A DNA stretch of 8,695 bases from Oscillospiraceae bacterium (lineage in GTDB: Bacteria; Bacillota_A; Clostridia; Oscillospirales; Oscillospiraceae). The position numbers and the translations under genes are program-made. The notes under the pieces were generated by a model that did not search any database, was not told where the DNA came from, and saw only the letters and a program-made list of their open reading frames with translations. Positions 2,671 through 8,695 of the stretch are shown piece after piece. Each line of letters begins with the position of its first letter. The first letter of the stretch is position 1. Location: contig JAFQLA010000106.1 in assembly GCA_017396725.1 (NCBI GenBank), positions 1 to 8,695 on the forward strand, given 5' to 3'.

Positions 2671-4026
2671 TTAATACTCGTCCTCGTCGTACCGCGTTTC
2701 GAGGGTACTGAAAGAGGTGTATTCGGGCAGCCACTTGAGCTCCACCTTGCCGGTTTCGCCGTGGCGGTTCTTGGCCACGATGCACTCGGCCACATTTCTC
2801 TTTTCGGAATCCTCATTATAATAATCGTCACGGAAGAGGAACATAACGATATCCGCGTCCTGCTCGATGGCGCCGGATTCACGAAGGTCGGAGAGCATGG
2901 GGCGCTTATCCTCACGCTTTTCGTTGGCACGGGAAAGCTGAGAGAGGCACAGCACCGGCACCTGCAGCTCCTTTGCCATGATCTTGAGCATACGGGAGAT
3001 ATCGCTGACGGCCTGCTGGCGGTTTTCGCCGGAATAGCCCTTGCCGCCGGCAGAGGTCATCAGCTGCAGATAGTCGATGACCACAAGGCCCAGATTATCC
3101 AGTCTTCTGCACTTGGCGTTCATATCCGCCACGGTGAGAAGGGGGTTATCGTCGATACGGATGTCGGTGCGGCTCAGTACAGAGGCCGCGTCCGCAATTT
3201 TCACCCAGTCGGTCTCTCTGAGATTACCCATGATGAGGCGGCCGTTTTCCACCAGCGCCTCAGAGGAGAGAAGACGGGTCACCAGCTGCTCGCGGCTCAT
3301 TTCCAAAGAGAAAATGGCAACGGTCTTTTCGCTGGCCTTGGCAACATTCAGCGCCACATTGAGCGCAAAGGAGGTTTTACCCATACCGGGGCGGGCCGCC
3401 AGCAGCACAAGGTCGCTCTTATTGAGGCCGGAGATCTTGGCGTCCACCGCGCTAAGGCCCGTGGAAAGGCCGGGCAGGGTCTTGCCGCCGGCTTCACTCA
3501 GCTCGCTGAGATGGTCCAGCACGCCGGGCAGCACCGTGCCCACCGTCACCATCTCCTGGGCGCCGCGGCCGCGGCGGATGGCGTAAATTTTCTGTTCGCT
3601 CAGCTCCAGCACATCCTGCGCTTCGCCCGCGCCGGACTGCACCAGGGCGGTGATCTCCCCCGCGGCGGTGGCAACGGAGCGCAAAAGCGCCTTGTCGCGA
3701 ACGATACCGGCATACTCCATCACATTGGCGGAGGTGGGGGTGATCTCCATAAGCTGGATGAGATAATCGCGGGTAACGGATTCATCAAAGATCTCGTTTT
3801 TCCGCATTTCGTCCGCCACGGTCACCGCGTCGATAGGACGGGAGTAGACGAACATGGAATAGATGGTTTCAAAGATCTCGCGGTTCTGGCGGAGATAGAA
3901 ATCCTGGGCCTGAAGCTTTTCCATCACATCCTTGACGCAGTTGGCGTCAATGAGCATAGAGCCCAGAACGGCCTGCTCGGCTTCCAGACTGTGGGGCATC
4001 TGCCGCACCAGCAAATCATCCTGCAT
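2671..4026 (-). CDS. dnaB: Replicative DNA helicase DnaB (DnaC in Bacillus naming)
   Basis: The hexameric 5'-3' helicase unwinds DNA at the replication fork and contacts DnaG primase. The 451-residue protein shows the family layout. The N-terminal scaffold domain (about 8-110) starts with MPHSLEAEQAVLGSML. A linker follows, then a RecA-like helicase domain from about 180. Walker A is ARPGMGKT at 211-218. FSLEMS lies at 239-244. Walker B with its following motif is LVVIDYLQLM at 314-323. SQLSRANEKR lies at 362-371, and the subunit-interface motif KNRHGETG with its arginine at 419-426. There is no intein or insertion. The ATG at 4024-4026 has an excellent ribosome binding site, AAGGAGG (4034-4040 on the plus strand), 7 nt away. 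The gene lies 29 nt after rplI, a common Firmicutes order. The stop is TAA. Confidence 0.97.
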   Translation of the reverse strand: MQDDLLVRQMPHSLEAEQAVLGSMLIDANCVKDVMEKLQAQDFYLRQNREIFETIYSMFVYSRPIDAVTVADEMRKNEIFDESVTRDYLIQLMEITPTSANVMEYAGIVRDKALLRSVATAAGEITALVQSGAGEAQDVLELSEQKIYAIRRGRGAQEMVTVGTVLPGVLDHLSELSEAGGKTLPGLSTGLSAVDAKISGLNKSDLVLLAARPGMGKTSFALNVALNVAKASEKTVAIFSLEMSREQLVTRLLSSEALVENGRLIMGNLRETDWVKIADAASVLSRTDIRIDDNPLLTVADMNAKCRRLDNLGLVVIDYLQLMTSAGGKGYSGENRQQAVSDISRMLKIMAKELQVPVLCLSQLSRANEKREDKRPMLSDLRESGAIEQDADIVMFLFRDDYYNEDSEKRNVAECIVAKNRHGETGKVELKWLPEYTSFSTLETRYDEDEY

Positions 4027-4055
4027 GGAAAAACCTCCTTCCCGATGGGAATTTC

Positions 4056-4502
4056 TTACTTCTCTTCGCTGACTACCACATAAACGGTGCCGCTGATCTC
4101 ATAGCCAAGCTTAGCCTTGACTTCATAGGAGCCGAAGCTCTTGATGGGTTCCACCACCAGCTTCTGCTTGGGGATATCCAGACCGAACTGCTTTTTCAGT
4201 TCCTCGGAAACTTCCTTATTGGTGATGGCGCCGAAAAGACGGCCGCCTGCGCCGCCCTTGGCGGGGATCTTCACCACGCACTCTTTGAGCTTGCCTGCGA
4301 TCTCCTGGGCGGCAGCCTTGTTGGCGGCTTCCTGCGCCAGGCGCGCCTTTTCCTTGAGCTTCATGGTATTGATGGCATCGGGGGTTGCAAGGACAGCTGC
4401 CTTGCGGGGGAGAAGGAAATTGCGGGCATAGCCTTCGCTGACTTCGATCATTTCACCCTTCTTGCCCTGACCTTTTACATCCTGCTGCAAAATAACTTTC
4501 AT
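4056..4502 (-). CDS. rplI: 50S ribosomal protein L9
   Basis: L9 binds 23S rRNA near the base of the L1 stalk and helps limit frameshifting and stop-codon bypass. The 148-residue protein has the normal two-domain form. The N-terminal RNA-binding domain is [21 protein letters not shown] followed by the L9 signature region [14 protein letters not shown] long alanine- and lysine-rich helix follows (about 42-76). The C-terminal domain contains [13 protein letters not shown] and ends in VYVVVSEEK. The ATG at 4500-4502 has GGAG 8 nt upstream. The gene sits 37 nt downstream of the catalytic half of gdpP and 29 nt upstream of dnaB, the usual gdpP-rplI-dnaB order. The stop is TAA. Confidence 0.97.
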
Positions 4503-4539: not shown

Positions 4540-5511
4540 TTACTTTTCAAAATAGGCATCCAGCGATGCTTCCAGCTGACTGCGGATATCGTCCACATCG
4601 GCATTCTCCACGCGGCCGCCTGCCACATTGGAGTTGCCGCCGCCGCCAAGGCGCTCCAGCACGATCTGCACATTTACATCCCCGTTGCTGCGGCCGCTCA
4701 TGGCCACGGCGTTGCCGCTGCGGTAGAGCACGAAGCTGGCATCCACGCCGCGCAGGCTCAAAAGCTCGTCTGCCGCCTGCGCCGCGATCACGCGGTCCAC
4801 ATTCTCTTCCACCGCGGCGATGGCGATGGAATCGCGGTACATCTCGGCATGGCGGATGATGCTGTAACGGGTGACCATTTCCTCCAGATCATTCTGGAAG
4901 AGGCGGATCACATCCACGGGGTTGGCGCCCACACGGCGCAGGAAAGCTGCCGCCTCAAAGGTGCGGGAGCCGGTGCGCATGGTAAAGCGCTTGGTGTCCA
5001 GCATAATGCCTGCCAGCAGCGCTTCGGCTTCGGAGCGAAGGATATCGCCGCTTTCGGTGAGATACTGCAAAAGCTCACTCACCAGCTCGCTGGCAGAGGA
5101 GGCGTACGGCTCGTGGAAATTGAGAGCGGGGTCTTCGATATAGGTGGCGGCGCGGCGGTGATGGTCGATCACTGCCACCTGATTGCAGGATTCCAGCAGC
5201 TGGCGGGATTCCACCGTCTCGGGACGGTTGCAGTCCACCACCACCAGAAGGTCACCTGCCTGCGCCTTCAAAAAGGCTTCTTCAGGGGAGATGAATACAT
5301 CTTCGTATTCCTCGTTCTCCCGCAGAAGGTCGATAACATCCATAGCGGAGTTTTTGGCAAGATCCACCACGATGTGGGCCTTTTTGCCCTTGCGGCGGGC
5401 AATGCAGCACACACCCGCGGCAGCGCCGATGGCGTCCATATCCGCATAGGAATGGCCCATGACATAGATCTCGCGCGCGTCATTCATCAGCTCGCCCAAG
5501 GCGTTTGCCAT
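4540..5511 (-). CDS. gdpP: GdpP C-terminal half: DHH-DHHA1 c-di-AMP phosphodiesterase domains, separated by an in-frame stop
   Basis: This is the catalytic part of GdpP, which in known homologues hydrolyses c-di-AMP to pApA using two Mn2+ ions. The 323-residue open frame contains DHH motif I, GHSYADMDAIGAA, at 19-31 with His20, Asp24 and Asp26. It also has VVDCNRP at 91-97 (Asp93), the DHH triad at 116-118, and LDTKRF at 171-176 (Asp172), so the metal ligands appear intact. DHHA1 follows to the end. Its glycine motif reads GGGGNSNVAGG (289-299), with Asn293 where the family typically has His. The frame continues that of the upstream half beyond a TAG. The ATG used here is the first possible start after that stop and has no good Shine-Dalgarno sequence; the nearest AAGG is 14 nt away. 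It may be a fragment, a reinitiated product, or part of a readthrough protein. Its length resembles free-standing DHH-DHHA1 phosphodiesterases of the Pde2/NrnA type. Confidence 0.85.
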   Translation of the reverse strand: MANALGELMNDAREIYVMGHSYADMDAIGAAAGVCCIARRKGKKAHIVVDLAKNSAMDVIDLLRENEEYEDVFISPEEAFLKAQAGDLLVVVDCNRPETVESRQLLESCNQVAVIDHHRRAATYIEDPALNFHEPYASSASELVSELLQYLTESGDILRSEAEALLAGIMLDTKRFTMRTGSRTFEAAAFLRRVGANPVDVIRLFQNDLEEMVTRYSIIRHAEMYRDSIAIAAVEENVDRVIAAQAADELLSLRGVDASFVLYRSGNAVAMSGRSNGDVNVQIVLERLGGGGNSNVAGGRVENADVDDIRSQLEASLDAYFEK

Positions 5512-5556
5512 AACGCGGGACTTGACCTTGGTGCGCTTTTCCGTGCTCTTGGACTA
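5512..5556 (-). other. gdpP: In-frame amber codon and translatable linker inside gdpP
   Basis: The upstream half ends GGC GGC TAG, with the TAG at 5554-5556. The 14 codons between this stop and the next ATG stay in the same frame and encode SKSTEKRTKVKSRV, followed by MANAL. In intact GdpP proteins the degenerate GGDEF domain ends in FYGG and runs straight into a linker resembling K/R-x-x-x-x-EKRTKVRARV, so family-like sequence continues directly across the stop. Reading through would give one protein of 662 residues, close to the usual GdpP length. A single base change from AAG (Lys), CAG (Gln) or another one-step neighbour would explain the TAG. The family comparison is from memory, not an alignment. 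Confidence 0.85.
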
Positions 5557-6528
5557 GCCGCCGTAGAACTCGAAGGTCAGCGCGTTTTTCACAACGGCCT
5601 GATCGCCGCCGCGGGAAAGGGCCATTTCCAGAGCGAGGGAGGCATACTTGAAGAGGCTTTCGTAGCCTTCCACATCCTTGCCGATGCCGATGGAAAGGGT
5701 CACAGCCACACCGTCGCCCACGGTGATAGAGCGGACGGCTTCCAGCACGGGGAACTTCTCTTCGATGATGCGGGAAGCATAGCAGGACTCGAAAACAAGA
5801 ATATACCGGTCACGGTCATACTTGAGGAAAAGACCATTGGCGGGTTCCACCCACGCGTTGAGCTTTTCATCGATGGCTGCCAGCACCGCGGAGCGGGAGG
5901 ATTCGGGGCAGGCCTTCATGACCTCGTCATAATTATCAATGGTGAGGATGGCCACCACAGGGCGGGAGGCGGAGTAGCGCAGGGTCTTCATATCCGCTTC
6001 GGTGGTATCGATCCAGTAGGTGGTGGCAAGATAGCCGGCAGGGGCGTTTTTCGCCTGCGCGCGGACCATGCTGCCGTAAACACGGTAGCGGCGCTGCCCC
6101 ACGATGACCCGCTCAGGGCATTCCTGACGGCCTTCCAGCAGCCAGCGGGTGGAGAAATTGGGCAGAACATCGCCCACACGCTTATCAAAGATCTGTTCCT
6201 TGGAATCCACCACGGCGCGGAAGCTCTCATTGCTCCAGAGGATCTCCTGCGTTTCGGGCCGGAAGACCATGCTGGGCAGGGGCGAATCCACCAGGGTGGA
6301 GTGGCTGGCGGAATCCATGCTGCCTGCCACACTTTCGATGTACTGCATCACGCTTCTCTTGCGGCGGAGGTTATCGCGGCGCAGCCAGAGATAGGCAAAA
6401 ACCGCCACCACCAGCTCCGCGGCGCCAAGCCACGGCTCAAAGTAAAGGGCTGCTGCGGCAAAGGCGAGGAGCAGCAGAAAATATAAAGTAAGATTCGACT
6501 CCAGAAGGCGGGAGATCTTCTTATTCAT
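5554..6528 (-). CDS. gdpP: GdpP N-terminal half: membrane, PAS and degenerate GGDEF domains, ending at an amber stop
   Basis: This is the membrane and sensory part of a c-di-AMP phosphodiesterase. The 324 residues begin with two membrane helices, about 13-30 and 34-51. A PAS-type sensory domain covers about 75-175, including LPSMVFRPETQEILWSNESF; haem binding is reported for some homologues but cannot be judged here. A degenerate GGDEF domain (about 188-324) lacks a GG(D/E)EF signature, as is usual in GdpP, but keeps SIGIGKD and SRGGDQAVVK. It ends at FYGG followed by TAG, so the DHH-DHHA1 catalytic domains are missing from this frame. The ATG at 6526-6528 was chosen because GGAG lies 5 nt upstream and MNKKISRLLESNL is a typical N-terminus. 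A TTG 17 codons further upstream (6579) is also in frame but would add an atypical leader. It is the first gene of the leftward series. Confidence 0.88.
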   Translation of the reverse strand: MNKKISRLLESNLTLYFLLLLAFAAAALYFEPWLGAAELVVAVFAYLWLRRDNLRRKRSVMQYIESVAGSMDSASHSTLVDSPLPSMVFRPETQEILWSNESFRAVVDSKEQIFDKRVGDVLPNFSTRWLLEGRQECPERVIVGQRRYRVYGSMVRAQAKNAPAGYLATTYWIDTTEADMKTLRYSASRPVVAILTIDNYDEVMKACPESSRSAVLAAIDEKLNAWVEPANGLFLKYDRDRYILVFESCYASRIIEEKFPVLEAVRSITVGDGVAVTLSIGIGKDVEGYESLFKYASLALEMALSRGGDQAVVKNALTFEFYGG

Positions 6529-6600
6529 ATACACTCCATTTCCGCCGCGCAGGGCAAATCCCACGGGCGCAGAACACAATAATGCTAATTATACAGATAC

Positions 6601-6629
6601 AGTATAGCACAAAGCTTTTCCGCTGTCCA
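6601..6629 (-). promoter_or_regulatory. Probable sigma-A promoter for the gdpP-rplI-dnaB-tilS-hpt-ftsH series
   Basis: Read on the minus strand, a -35 box TGGACA (6624-6629) is separated by 17 nt from a -10 box TATACT (6601-6606). The -10 is preceded by TGC, giving an extended -10. Each hexamer matches the vegetative consensus at 5 of 6 positions. Transcription would start near 6594, giving a leader of about 65 nt before the gdpP ATG. A second perfect TATAAT (6588-6593) lies at the predicted start but has no good -35 box. Confidence 0.7.
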
Positions 6630-6645
6630 CCACACTTTGTGGTGG
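6627..6645. promoter_or_regulatory. Inverted repeat between divergent -35 boxes, candidate operator
   Basis: CCACCACA and TGTGGTGG form a perfect 8-bp dyad around a 3-nt centre. It overlaps the gdpP-side -35 box by 3 nt and ends 9 nt before the -35 box of the rightward promoter, so one bound protein could affect both directions. A looser outer repeat, CGCTGTC (6621-6627) and GACAGCG (6657-6663), is mostly the two -35 boxes and their GCG flanks. No U-tract follows the dyad on either strand, so it is not a normal terminator. The regulator is unknown. Confidence 0.5.
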
Positions 6646-6654
6646 TTGAAAACA

Positions 6655-6683
6655 TTGACAGCGCACATTTGCCGTCTTAAAAT
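6655..6683 (+). promoter_or_regulatory. Strong sigma-A-like promoter for the deacylase-peptidase pair
   Basis: A perfect -35 box TTGACA (6655-6660) and a -10 box TAAAAT (6678-6683, 5 of 6 consensus bases) are separated by the optimal 17 nt. Transcription would begin near 6690, leaving a leader of under 20 nt that contains the Shine-Dalgarno sequence AAAGGAG (6692-6698). So short a leader leaves no room for a riboswitch; control, if any, would be at the promoter. Confidence 0.8.
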
Positions 6684-6707
6684 AAAGGGCGAAAGGAGAT
6701 GGTGAAA

Positions 6708-8297
6708 ATGCTCGATACCATCATCTTGGGCGGCACCGTGGCAGACGGTACTTTGGCCCAGCCCCGCCGCGCCGATGTGGGCATCCGCGCCGGCAAGATC
6801 GTGTCCGTTGGCGACCTTTCCCGCGAAAGCGCCGCAAAAATCATTTCTGCCGAGGGAAAACTGGTGACCCCCGGCTTTATCGATATTCACCGCCATTGCG
6901 ATATCGCCTATTTCCGTCCCGATTTCGGCAAGGCGGAACTCAAGCAGGGCCTTACCACCATCATCGGCGGCCAGTGCGGTCTTTCCGCCGCTCCCTGCCG
7001 CGGGCCTTACGCGCAGGAACTCATCCACTACATGAACGCCGTCAACGGGGATGTGCCTGCCGGCACGCCCCTTGACTCCATGAAAAACTATATTGACGGT
7101 CTCGCTGAGCGCGCCTTCCCCATCCATGTGGGCACCGAGGTGGGCATGGGCACGCTGCGCGCCAATGTGGCAGGCTTTCTGACGGAAAACCTCTCCCGAG
7201 AGGAAGTCCGCGCCATTCAGGCTCTGCTGGAGGAATCTCTGGCGGCAGGCGCTCTTGCCGTATCTCTCGGCATGGGCTATGCCCCCGAATGTTTCTACAC
7301 CACCGAACAGCTCCTGGATGTGCTCTCTCCCCTGCAGGGCACTTCCACCCTTGTCACCTGCCACATGCGTCAGGAGGGCAGCGAGGTGGAAAAATCCGTG
7401 GCGGAGATGATCGAGCTTTCCATGAAGCTCTCCATTCCCGTGCAGATCAGCCATCTCAAGGCCATCGGCCGTGAGAACTGGGGCAAGAAGGTGCCCCTTG
7501 TGATCTCCATGATCGAGGAGGCCCGCAAAAGCGGCGCGGATGTGGGGTTTGACGTCTATCCCTACACCGCGGGCTCCACTTTGCTCCTCCATGTGCTGCC
7601 CCCCGAATTTTTGAAGGGCGGCGTGGCACAGCTGCCCAAAACGCTGATGGACCCCGCCCTGCGGCCGCTGATCCGTCAGCGCATGGAAACGGGCACCGAC
7701 TTTGAAAATATCTCCCTCCTTGTGGGCTGGGAGAATATCATCATGGCCTCTTTGAACTGCCCCCACAATAAGCCCTGGGCAGGCATGACCATTGCCGACA
7801 TCGCCAAGGGGCAGGGCAAGGATCCCTTCGACACCCTCTTTGATATGCTCGCTGAGGAAAAAGGCGAGATCACCATGATCGACCATGTGGCCTCCGAAGA
7901 GGACATCGCGCTGCTGCTCAAACACGAAGCGGGCCTTATCATTTCCGACAGTATCTATCCCACCAGCGGCCTCCGTCACCCCCGTCTCTACGGCACCTTT
8001 GTCCGTGTGCTGGAGCGGTATGTAAAAGAGCGCAAGGTGCTCTCTTTGCCTCAGGCCATCCACAAGATGACCCTGGCCCCCGCCCGCCGCTTCGGCATCG
8101 CCGGCAAGGGCTGCATCAAGGAAGGCTATGACGCGGATATCAACATCTTCGACCCCGACGCTCTCCGCGAAACGGGCACCTACCGCGAGCCCGATCAGTA
8201 CGCCGAAGGCATGGACACCGTCCTCGTCATGGGTGAGACTGCCATCGAAAAGGGCGAATTCTCCCACATGACCGCAGGCCGCCTCATAAGGAGATAA
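6708..8297 (+). CDS. N-acyl-D-amino-acid deacylase (D-aminoacylase family, amidohydrolase superfamily)
   Basis: Members of this family are zinc enzymes that remove the acyl group from N-acyl-D-amino acids, or hydrolyse related D-amino-acid or dipeptide-like amides. The 529-residue protein has the amidohydrolase pattern. PGFIDIHRHCD carries the H61-x-H63 metal motif. GLTTIIGGQCGLSAAP contains the metal-ligand Cys90 typical of D-aminoacylases. CHMRQEG supplies His219 and QISHLK supplies His249. FDVYPYTAGST follows at 281-291. ISDS provides the catalytic-type Asp414, followed by HPRLYGTFVRVLERYV. No signal peptide is visible, so it should be cytoplasmic. The ATG at 6708 is preferred because AAAGGAG ends 9 nt upstream and MLDTIILGGTVADG matches family N-termini. 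The in-frame ATG at 6699 abuts the Shine-Dalgarno sequence and is too close. The peptidase gene follows after 1 nt. The exact substrate cannot be told; dihydropyrimidinase-like or dipeptidase activities are less likely alternatives. Confidence 0.88.
   Translation: MLDTIILGGTVADGTLAQPRRADVGIRAGKIVSVGDLSRESAAKIISAEGKLVTPGFIDIHRHCDIAYFRPDFGKAELKQGLTTIIGGQCGLSAAPCRGPYAQELIHYMNAVNGDVPAGTPLDSMKNYIDGLAERAFPIHVGTEVGMGTLRANVAGFLTENLSREEVRAIQALLEESLAAGALAVSLGMGYAPECFYTTEQLLDVLSPLQGTSTLVTCHMRQEGSEVEKSVAEMIELSMKLSIPVQISHLKAIGRENWGKKVPLVISMIEEARKSGADVGFDVYPYTAGSTLLLHVLPPEFLKGGVAQLPKTLMDPALRPLIRQRMETGTDFENISLLVGWENIIMASLNCPHNKPWAGMTIADIAKGQGKDPFDTLFDMLAEEKGEITMIDHVASEEDIALLLKHEAGLIISDSIYPTSGLRHPRLYGTFVRVLERYVKERKVLSLPQAIHKMTLAPARRFGIAGKGCIKEGYDADINIFDPDALRETGTYREPDQYAEGMDTVLVMGETAIEKGEFSHMTAGRLIRR
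8288..8293 (+). promoter_or_regulatory. Ribosome binding site of the M24 peptidase, inside the end of the deacylase gene
   Basis: AAGGAG lies within the last codons of the deacylase, 5 nt before the ATG at 8299. The upstream stop TAA is at 8295-8297, so the two genes are 1 nt apart and probably translationally coupled. Confidence 0.8.
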
Positions 8298-8298
8298 T

Positions 8299-8695
8299 AT
8301 GAACCGATTTGAAGCCATCCGCCAAAAACTCCCGCAGCACTCGCTGGACGCCATTTTGCTCACGGAAGAGGCCAACCGCTTCTATGCCTCCCTCTTTCAC
8401 TCCACCGGCTCCGACGGCGCCGCCCTCATCACCCAAAAGGGCGCTTACTACCTCACCGACTCCCGCTATATCGAAGCCGCGGAAAAGACGGTGCAGGGAG
8501 CGGAGTGCCTGCTGGTGACGGCGCAGGAGCCATACAGCGCCAAGATCAACGCCATCCTCGCTTCCGACGGCGTCCAACGCCTTGGTATCGACGAGGAGTA
8601 TATGACTCTCGCCGCTTTCCGCCGCTATGAAAAGCTCTTAAAGGCCGCGCTTTGCGACGGCAGCGCCCTTATGCGGGAGCTGCGCGCCCAAAAGG
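8299..8695 (+). CDS. M24B-family peptidase (Xaa-Pro aminopeptidase-like), N-terminal part (cut by window edge)
   Basis: The first 132 codons are present and the frame is open to the right edge. The sequence fits the creatinase N-terminal domain that precedes the metal-binding catalytic domain in M24B peptidases. MNRFEAIRQKL is followed by DAILLTEEANRFYASLFHSTGSDGAALIT, the usual 'place with N-x-x-Y and a G-S-D-G turn' pattern. YYLTDSRYIEAAEKTV at 55-70 matches the conserved T-D-x-R-Y region, and LGIDEEYMTLAAFRRY lies near 106-121. The metal ligands would lie beyond the window, so catalytic competence cannot be checked. Xaa-Pro aminopeptidases remove N-terminal residues that precede proline; some relatives are Xaa-Pro dipeptidases or creatinases. 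Pairing with a D-aminoacylase-type enzyme suggests a role in peptide breakdown. The start is fixed by its ribosome binding site. Confidence 0.85.
   Translation, partial: MNRFEAIRQKLPQHSLDAILLTEEANRFYASLFHSTGSDGAALITQKGAYYLTDSRYIEAAEKTVQGAECLLVTAQEPYSAKINAILASDGVQRLGIDEEYMTLAAFRRYEKLLKAALCDGSALMRELRAQK

Follow-up and report, generated by a model that had tools for sequence, protein, structure and literature searches.

In the window analysed here, a stretch of 8,695 nucleotides (nts) comprising positions 1 to 8,695 of contig JAFQLA010000106.1 of an Oscillospiraceae bacterium (assembly GCA_017396725.1), the gene gdpP, encoding a phosphodiesterase of cyclic di-AMP (c-di-AMP), is interrupted by a single in-frame amber codon located between its regulatory and catalytic halves. 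With moderate confidence, this interruption is interpreted as a nonsense allele private to this sequence, in a gdpP that is otherwise unremarkable, leading to a loss of function. The gene lies on the minus strand (6528-4540) and contains 662 codons followed by a TAA, while translation reveals a sole internal stop, the TAG at codon 325. The gene can be divided as follows:

5554 to 6528, minus strand: N-terminal part of gdpP up to the TAG, 324 amino acids (aa), with a membrane stretch (by eye) and a GGDEF-like domain (GGDEF_GdpP, PF24898, residues 196-315)
5554 to 5556, minus strand: in-frame TAG, codon 325 of gdpP, identified by translation; R, K or H in the homologue column
5512 to 5553, minus strand: 14 family-like linker codons between the TAG and the next start codon
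5509 to 5511, minus strand: ATG, first possible restart codon 3′ of the TAG, with a weak Shine-Dalgarno pairing (-3.3 kcal/mol) 12 nts away
4540 to 5511, minus strand: C-terminal catalytic part of gdpP (323 aa when counted from the ATG), with the domains DHH and DHHA1, assigned by Pfam and by matches in the PDB

Known domains were found by Pfam on both sides of the stop. The GGDEF_GdpP domain lies 5′ of the TAG with a score of 86 bits (cut-off 30), while DHH (PF01368, 90 bits) and DHHA1 (PF02272, 47 bits) both lie 3′ of it. Translation and these matches confirm the proposal of a first-pass annotation, made from the sequence only, that a single in-frame TAG separates the two halves of GdpP and that the half beyond it is the DHH-DHHA1 catalytic one. 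The family-like linker reported directly after the stop is also borne out, as the 14 codons concerned, SKSTEKRTKVKSRV, match those of close relatives. The description of the N-terminal half as a transmembrane, PAS and GGDEF module stands in part: the GGDEF domain was recovered, the transmembrane character of a hydrophobic N-terminal stretch was judged by eye only, and no PAS domain was matched by Pfam in this half. Degenerate PAS domains often escape detection. The C-terminal part matches solved catalytic domains of cyclic-dinucleotide phosphodiesterases in the PDB (5xsi and 5xt3, E 6e-63; 9n0l, E 2e-48). The domains expected of GdpP on a single polypeptide are thus divided in the window by the TAG at codon 325, which follows the GGDEF match by 10 codons and precedes the DHH match by 29. 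This placement between domains is not strong evidence of anything, since codons 316 to 353 hold 11 of the 175 (6%) single-step nonsense changes possible in this gene.

The stop looks private to the window sequence, because the relatives examined are intact, the loci that could be read carry a sense codon and no close free-standing half is present among the matches listed. In the best 120 of 7996 scored full-length homologues, a set obtained with a length window that favours intact single-polypeptide proteins, the column of codon 325 is occupied by R (114), K (4) or H (2). The five closest (P0001-P0005, 84-91% identity), which are known as database proteins only, are intact and carry K (four) or R (one) at this position. 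No further strain of this species came to light, and the nearest named locus, from a metagenome-assembled genome (MAG) of Oscillibacter sp., shows 64-65% identity. Among 400 genomes sampled from the family of this MAG, 394 had a gdpP match and none of the matches listed contained an internal stop. Not all 394 can be credited with an intact gdpP, because at least 9 of them show weak matches only (E ~1e-13 to 1e-4) and weaker ones lie outside the matches listed. The codon was readable by motif in 37 of 53 fetched loci (34 distinct, L001-L003 being identical to L019-L021) and invariably proved to be a sense codon; the reading motif had no match in the remaining 16. Free-standing halves closer than 70% identity for the C-terminal half, or 56% for the N-terminal half, were absent among the matches listed, and no relative of P0001 was found on viral contigs. 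The alignment with GdpP from relatives that had been recommended as a check therefore finds R, K or H in place of the TAG, and the sharing of the same stop by many relatives, which would have argued against a recent mutation, is not seen in those examined. In one relative (P0006), the 712-aa GdpP contains some 47 residues twice in tandem, in the region where the GGDEF domain ends and the linker lies, possibly an assembly duplication.

Provided that the base is real and that no suppressor acts in this bacterium, the ribosome would halt at the TAG (5554-5556) and release a 324-residue membrane and GGDEF-like stub devoid of DHH-DHHA1. The catalytic half would at best be a low-level product of chance restart at ATG 5511, the first start codon 3′ of the TAG, located in frame 42 nts further on. 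Pairing with the anti-Shine-Dalgarno sequence at this ATG amounts to -3.3 kcal/mol, compared to -4.5 to -12.5 kcal/mol where six genes of the window start. For the equivalent Met, the pairing averages -3.6 kcal/mol over 31 of 32 relatives' loci; hence no start signal has been gained at ATG 5511 relative to intact relatives. GdpP activity would consequently be lost or strongly reduced and, by analogy with other Firmicutes, c-di-AMP would be expected to rise. In S. aureus, suppressor strains with stops in or before the DHH/DHHA1 region of gdpP, which disrupt its activity, are described in PMC3164647, of which one section concerns the raised c-di-AMP upon GdpP inactivation. Similarly, loss-of-function pde1 alleles of S. 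pneumoniae are associated, in PMC10576035, with increased c-di-AMP and low-level penicillin resistance. The window stop would be of the same kind as these alleles, in a host of a different bacterial group and with a predicted effect on c-di-AMP. In addition, many genomes among the matches listed for the 400 sampled count at least two matches to the gdpP query. In three genomes the second match shares 27-28% identity with the DHH-DHHA1 half and lies in frames of 350-383 aa, about as long as stand-alone DHH proteins; such proteins might share the work of GdpP.

The distribution of private changes, defined as positions where the other five members of the close group agree, bears on whether the gene is decaying. 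The window GdpP has 3 such changes in its N-terminal half and 9 in its C-terminal half, compared to 43 and 19 in the five close relatives together, an imbalance (Fisher p = 0.007) seen in a test that was post hoc and counts a small number of changes (12 in the window). The terminal branch length ratio of the C- to the N-terminal half is likewise 2.17 for the window and 0.36-0.81 for the close relatives. This excess would fit a catalytic half on which constraint has been relaxed for a while, and leans towards a real allele. Several observations weigh against a private loss-of-function allele, beside the post hoc nature of this test. The base that creates the TAG comes from one assembled sequence alone. 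Moreover, only one of the nine private changes of the C-terminal half (residue 536) affects a column that does not vary among the other 120 proteins, with 3.7 of nine expected in an unconstrained sequence (P = 0.065), hence the C-terminal half does not look long dead. Lastly, the simple privacy of the stop is challenged by a group of database proteins: 15 of the 120 listed half-length matches to the C-terminal half (323-326 aa, 59-69% identical) start at the Met equivalent to ATG 5511 and may represent contig ends or true splits.

These observations have to be weighed between several explanations. If the TAG arose in sequencing or assembly, or if the consensus took it from a rare strain variant, the organism would have an intact gdpP; this is a serious contender, though a less probable one than a real allele. 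It would require one base-level event in an otherwise intact and conserved gene, it agrees with the intact state of the five close relatives, and the conserved columns are retained, with 1 departure in 137 invariant C-terminal columns, a count also found in four close relatives (the fifth has none). However, a lone error would not be expected to bring the relative surplus of private changes seen in the catalytic half. On the simplest account, the stop is a plain nonsense allele or otherwise an error in the sequence, two options inseparable on the window sequence alone; nothing about it points clearly to a novel mechanism. Among the four options raised by the first-pass annotation, nonsense mutation and sequence error thus stay likely, while natural splitting and suppressor readthrough find little support. 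A natural two-part protein, in which restart at ATG 5511 would produce a soluble DHH-DHHA1 enzyme apart from or alongside the membrane half, is unlikely. In its favour are the in-frame ATG shortly after the TAG, the solved structures of DHH-DHHA1 pieces of GdpP of 339-343 residues (5xsi and 5xt3), the apparent constraint on the C-terminal half and the 15 half-length proteins. The latter come from more distant relatives; 12 of them have a longest contig below 5 kb, while P0151, P0156 and P0178 lie on contigs above 10 kb. However, gene finders would take the first start that follows a break, whether this is a stop, a frameshift or the end of a contig, so half-length proteins would cluster at a conserved Met in any case. 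A recurrent break at the TAG position was considered and rejected, as the 120 N-terminal-half matches listed include 37 no longer than 400 aa and none of these ends there, directly after FYGG. Others end slightly further into the linker (P0243, P0246, P0280, P0342 and P0354, on contigs of 1.0-4.6 kb) or near this place with an altered or absent GG (P0257, P0272 and P0332, on contigs of 1.7-9.1 kb), which contig ends would explain. The absence of any split close relative among the matches listed and a pairing at ATG 5511 that is weak and about the same as at this Met in intact relatives also argue against two natural subunits. Alone, the C-terminal half would resemble the stand-alone DHH-DHHA1 enzymes DhhP and NrnA but, unlike them, it forms the 3′ portion of a gdpP gene and has no strong start signal of its own. 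More doubtful still is an adaptive split that is kept, in which a sensor stub and a little soluble phosphodiesterase made from ATG 5511 would uncouple c-di-AMP breakdown from PAS/GGDEF control, the 15 distant half-proteins being repeat cases. Two other truncated GdpP proteins, P0309 and P0339, terminate in SLIHI and IGRASCRERV, peptides that resemble translated sequencing adapter.

The decoding of the TAG as an amino acid, by a suppressor tRNA, pyrrolysine or other recoding, would restore a full-length GdpP but is highly improbable. It could be suggested by the Lys found at this position in four of the five close relatives and by the fact that none of the six complete genes of the window ends with TAG. 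However, TAG terminates 22 of 96 crude gene calls in the loci of 32 relatives, where it is an ordinary stop, and at this rate six ends free of TAG have a probability of 0.21. Furthermore, the pyrrolysyl-tRNA synthetase PylS was found above the cut-off of 178 bits in none of the 400 sampled family genomes, compared to one of 14 controls. Matches below the cut-off occur in 233 of the 400 genomes (best 33 bits among the matches listed) and 13 of the 14 controls had a match; such weak matches would be expected from other tRNA synthetases. The RNA following the TAG shows no unusual fold compared to shuffled sequences (z = 0.39), no RNA element was matched in Rfam and the window contains no tRNA gene.

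On the minus strand, gdpP is followed by rplI, dnaB, a tilS-like gene, a phosphoribosyltransferase gene (hpt) and the partial start of an ftsH-like gene (ftsH), the last two being named by eye, while an amidohydrolase gene lies upstream of gdpP on the plus strand. The two genes nearest to the 3′ end of gdpP are:

4056 to 4502, minus strand: rplI (ribosomal protein L9), next gene downstream of gdpP
2671 to 4026, minus strand: dnaB (replicative helicase), downstream

The presence of rplI and dnaB downstream, together with the GGDEF_GdpP, DHH and DHHA1 domains and the match to solved catalytic domains, is shared with the c-di-AMP phosphodiesterases GdpP, YybT and Pde1, from which the window gene differs by the in-frame TAG and by the lack of a PAS match in Pfam. 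A GdpP without PAS is mentioned for Mycoplasma bovis in PMC10720645. Long open frames are also found opposite gdpP (4849-6486, plus strand, 545 aa), dnaB (2761-4083, plus strand, 440 aa) and the amidohydrolase gene (6585-8375, minus strand, 596 aa), and probably arise from G+C-rich codon usage. At 6699-6710 (plus strand), the motif AAAGGAG is located immediately 5′ of the first ATG of the amidohydrolase gene; because it abuts this ATG, translation may really begin at another ATG three codons downstream.

No report of gdpP loss of function in the Oscillospiraceae group appeared among the open-licence papers listed. Interest in this stop is low, and would rise with read support together with a sister strain carrying the TAG, or if the distant half-length proteins are true splits; a sequence error would have relevance for annotation only. 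If the base is real, the window would hold a further natural loss-of-function allele of gdpP, in an Oscillospiraceae-related bacterium in which raised c-di-AMP is possibly tolerated.
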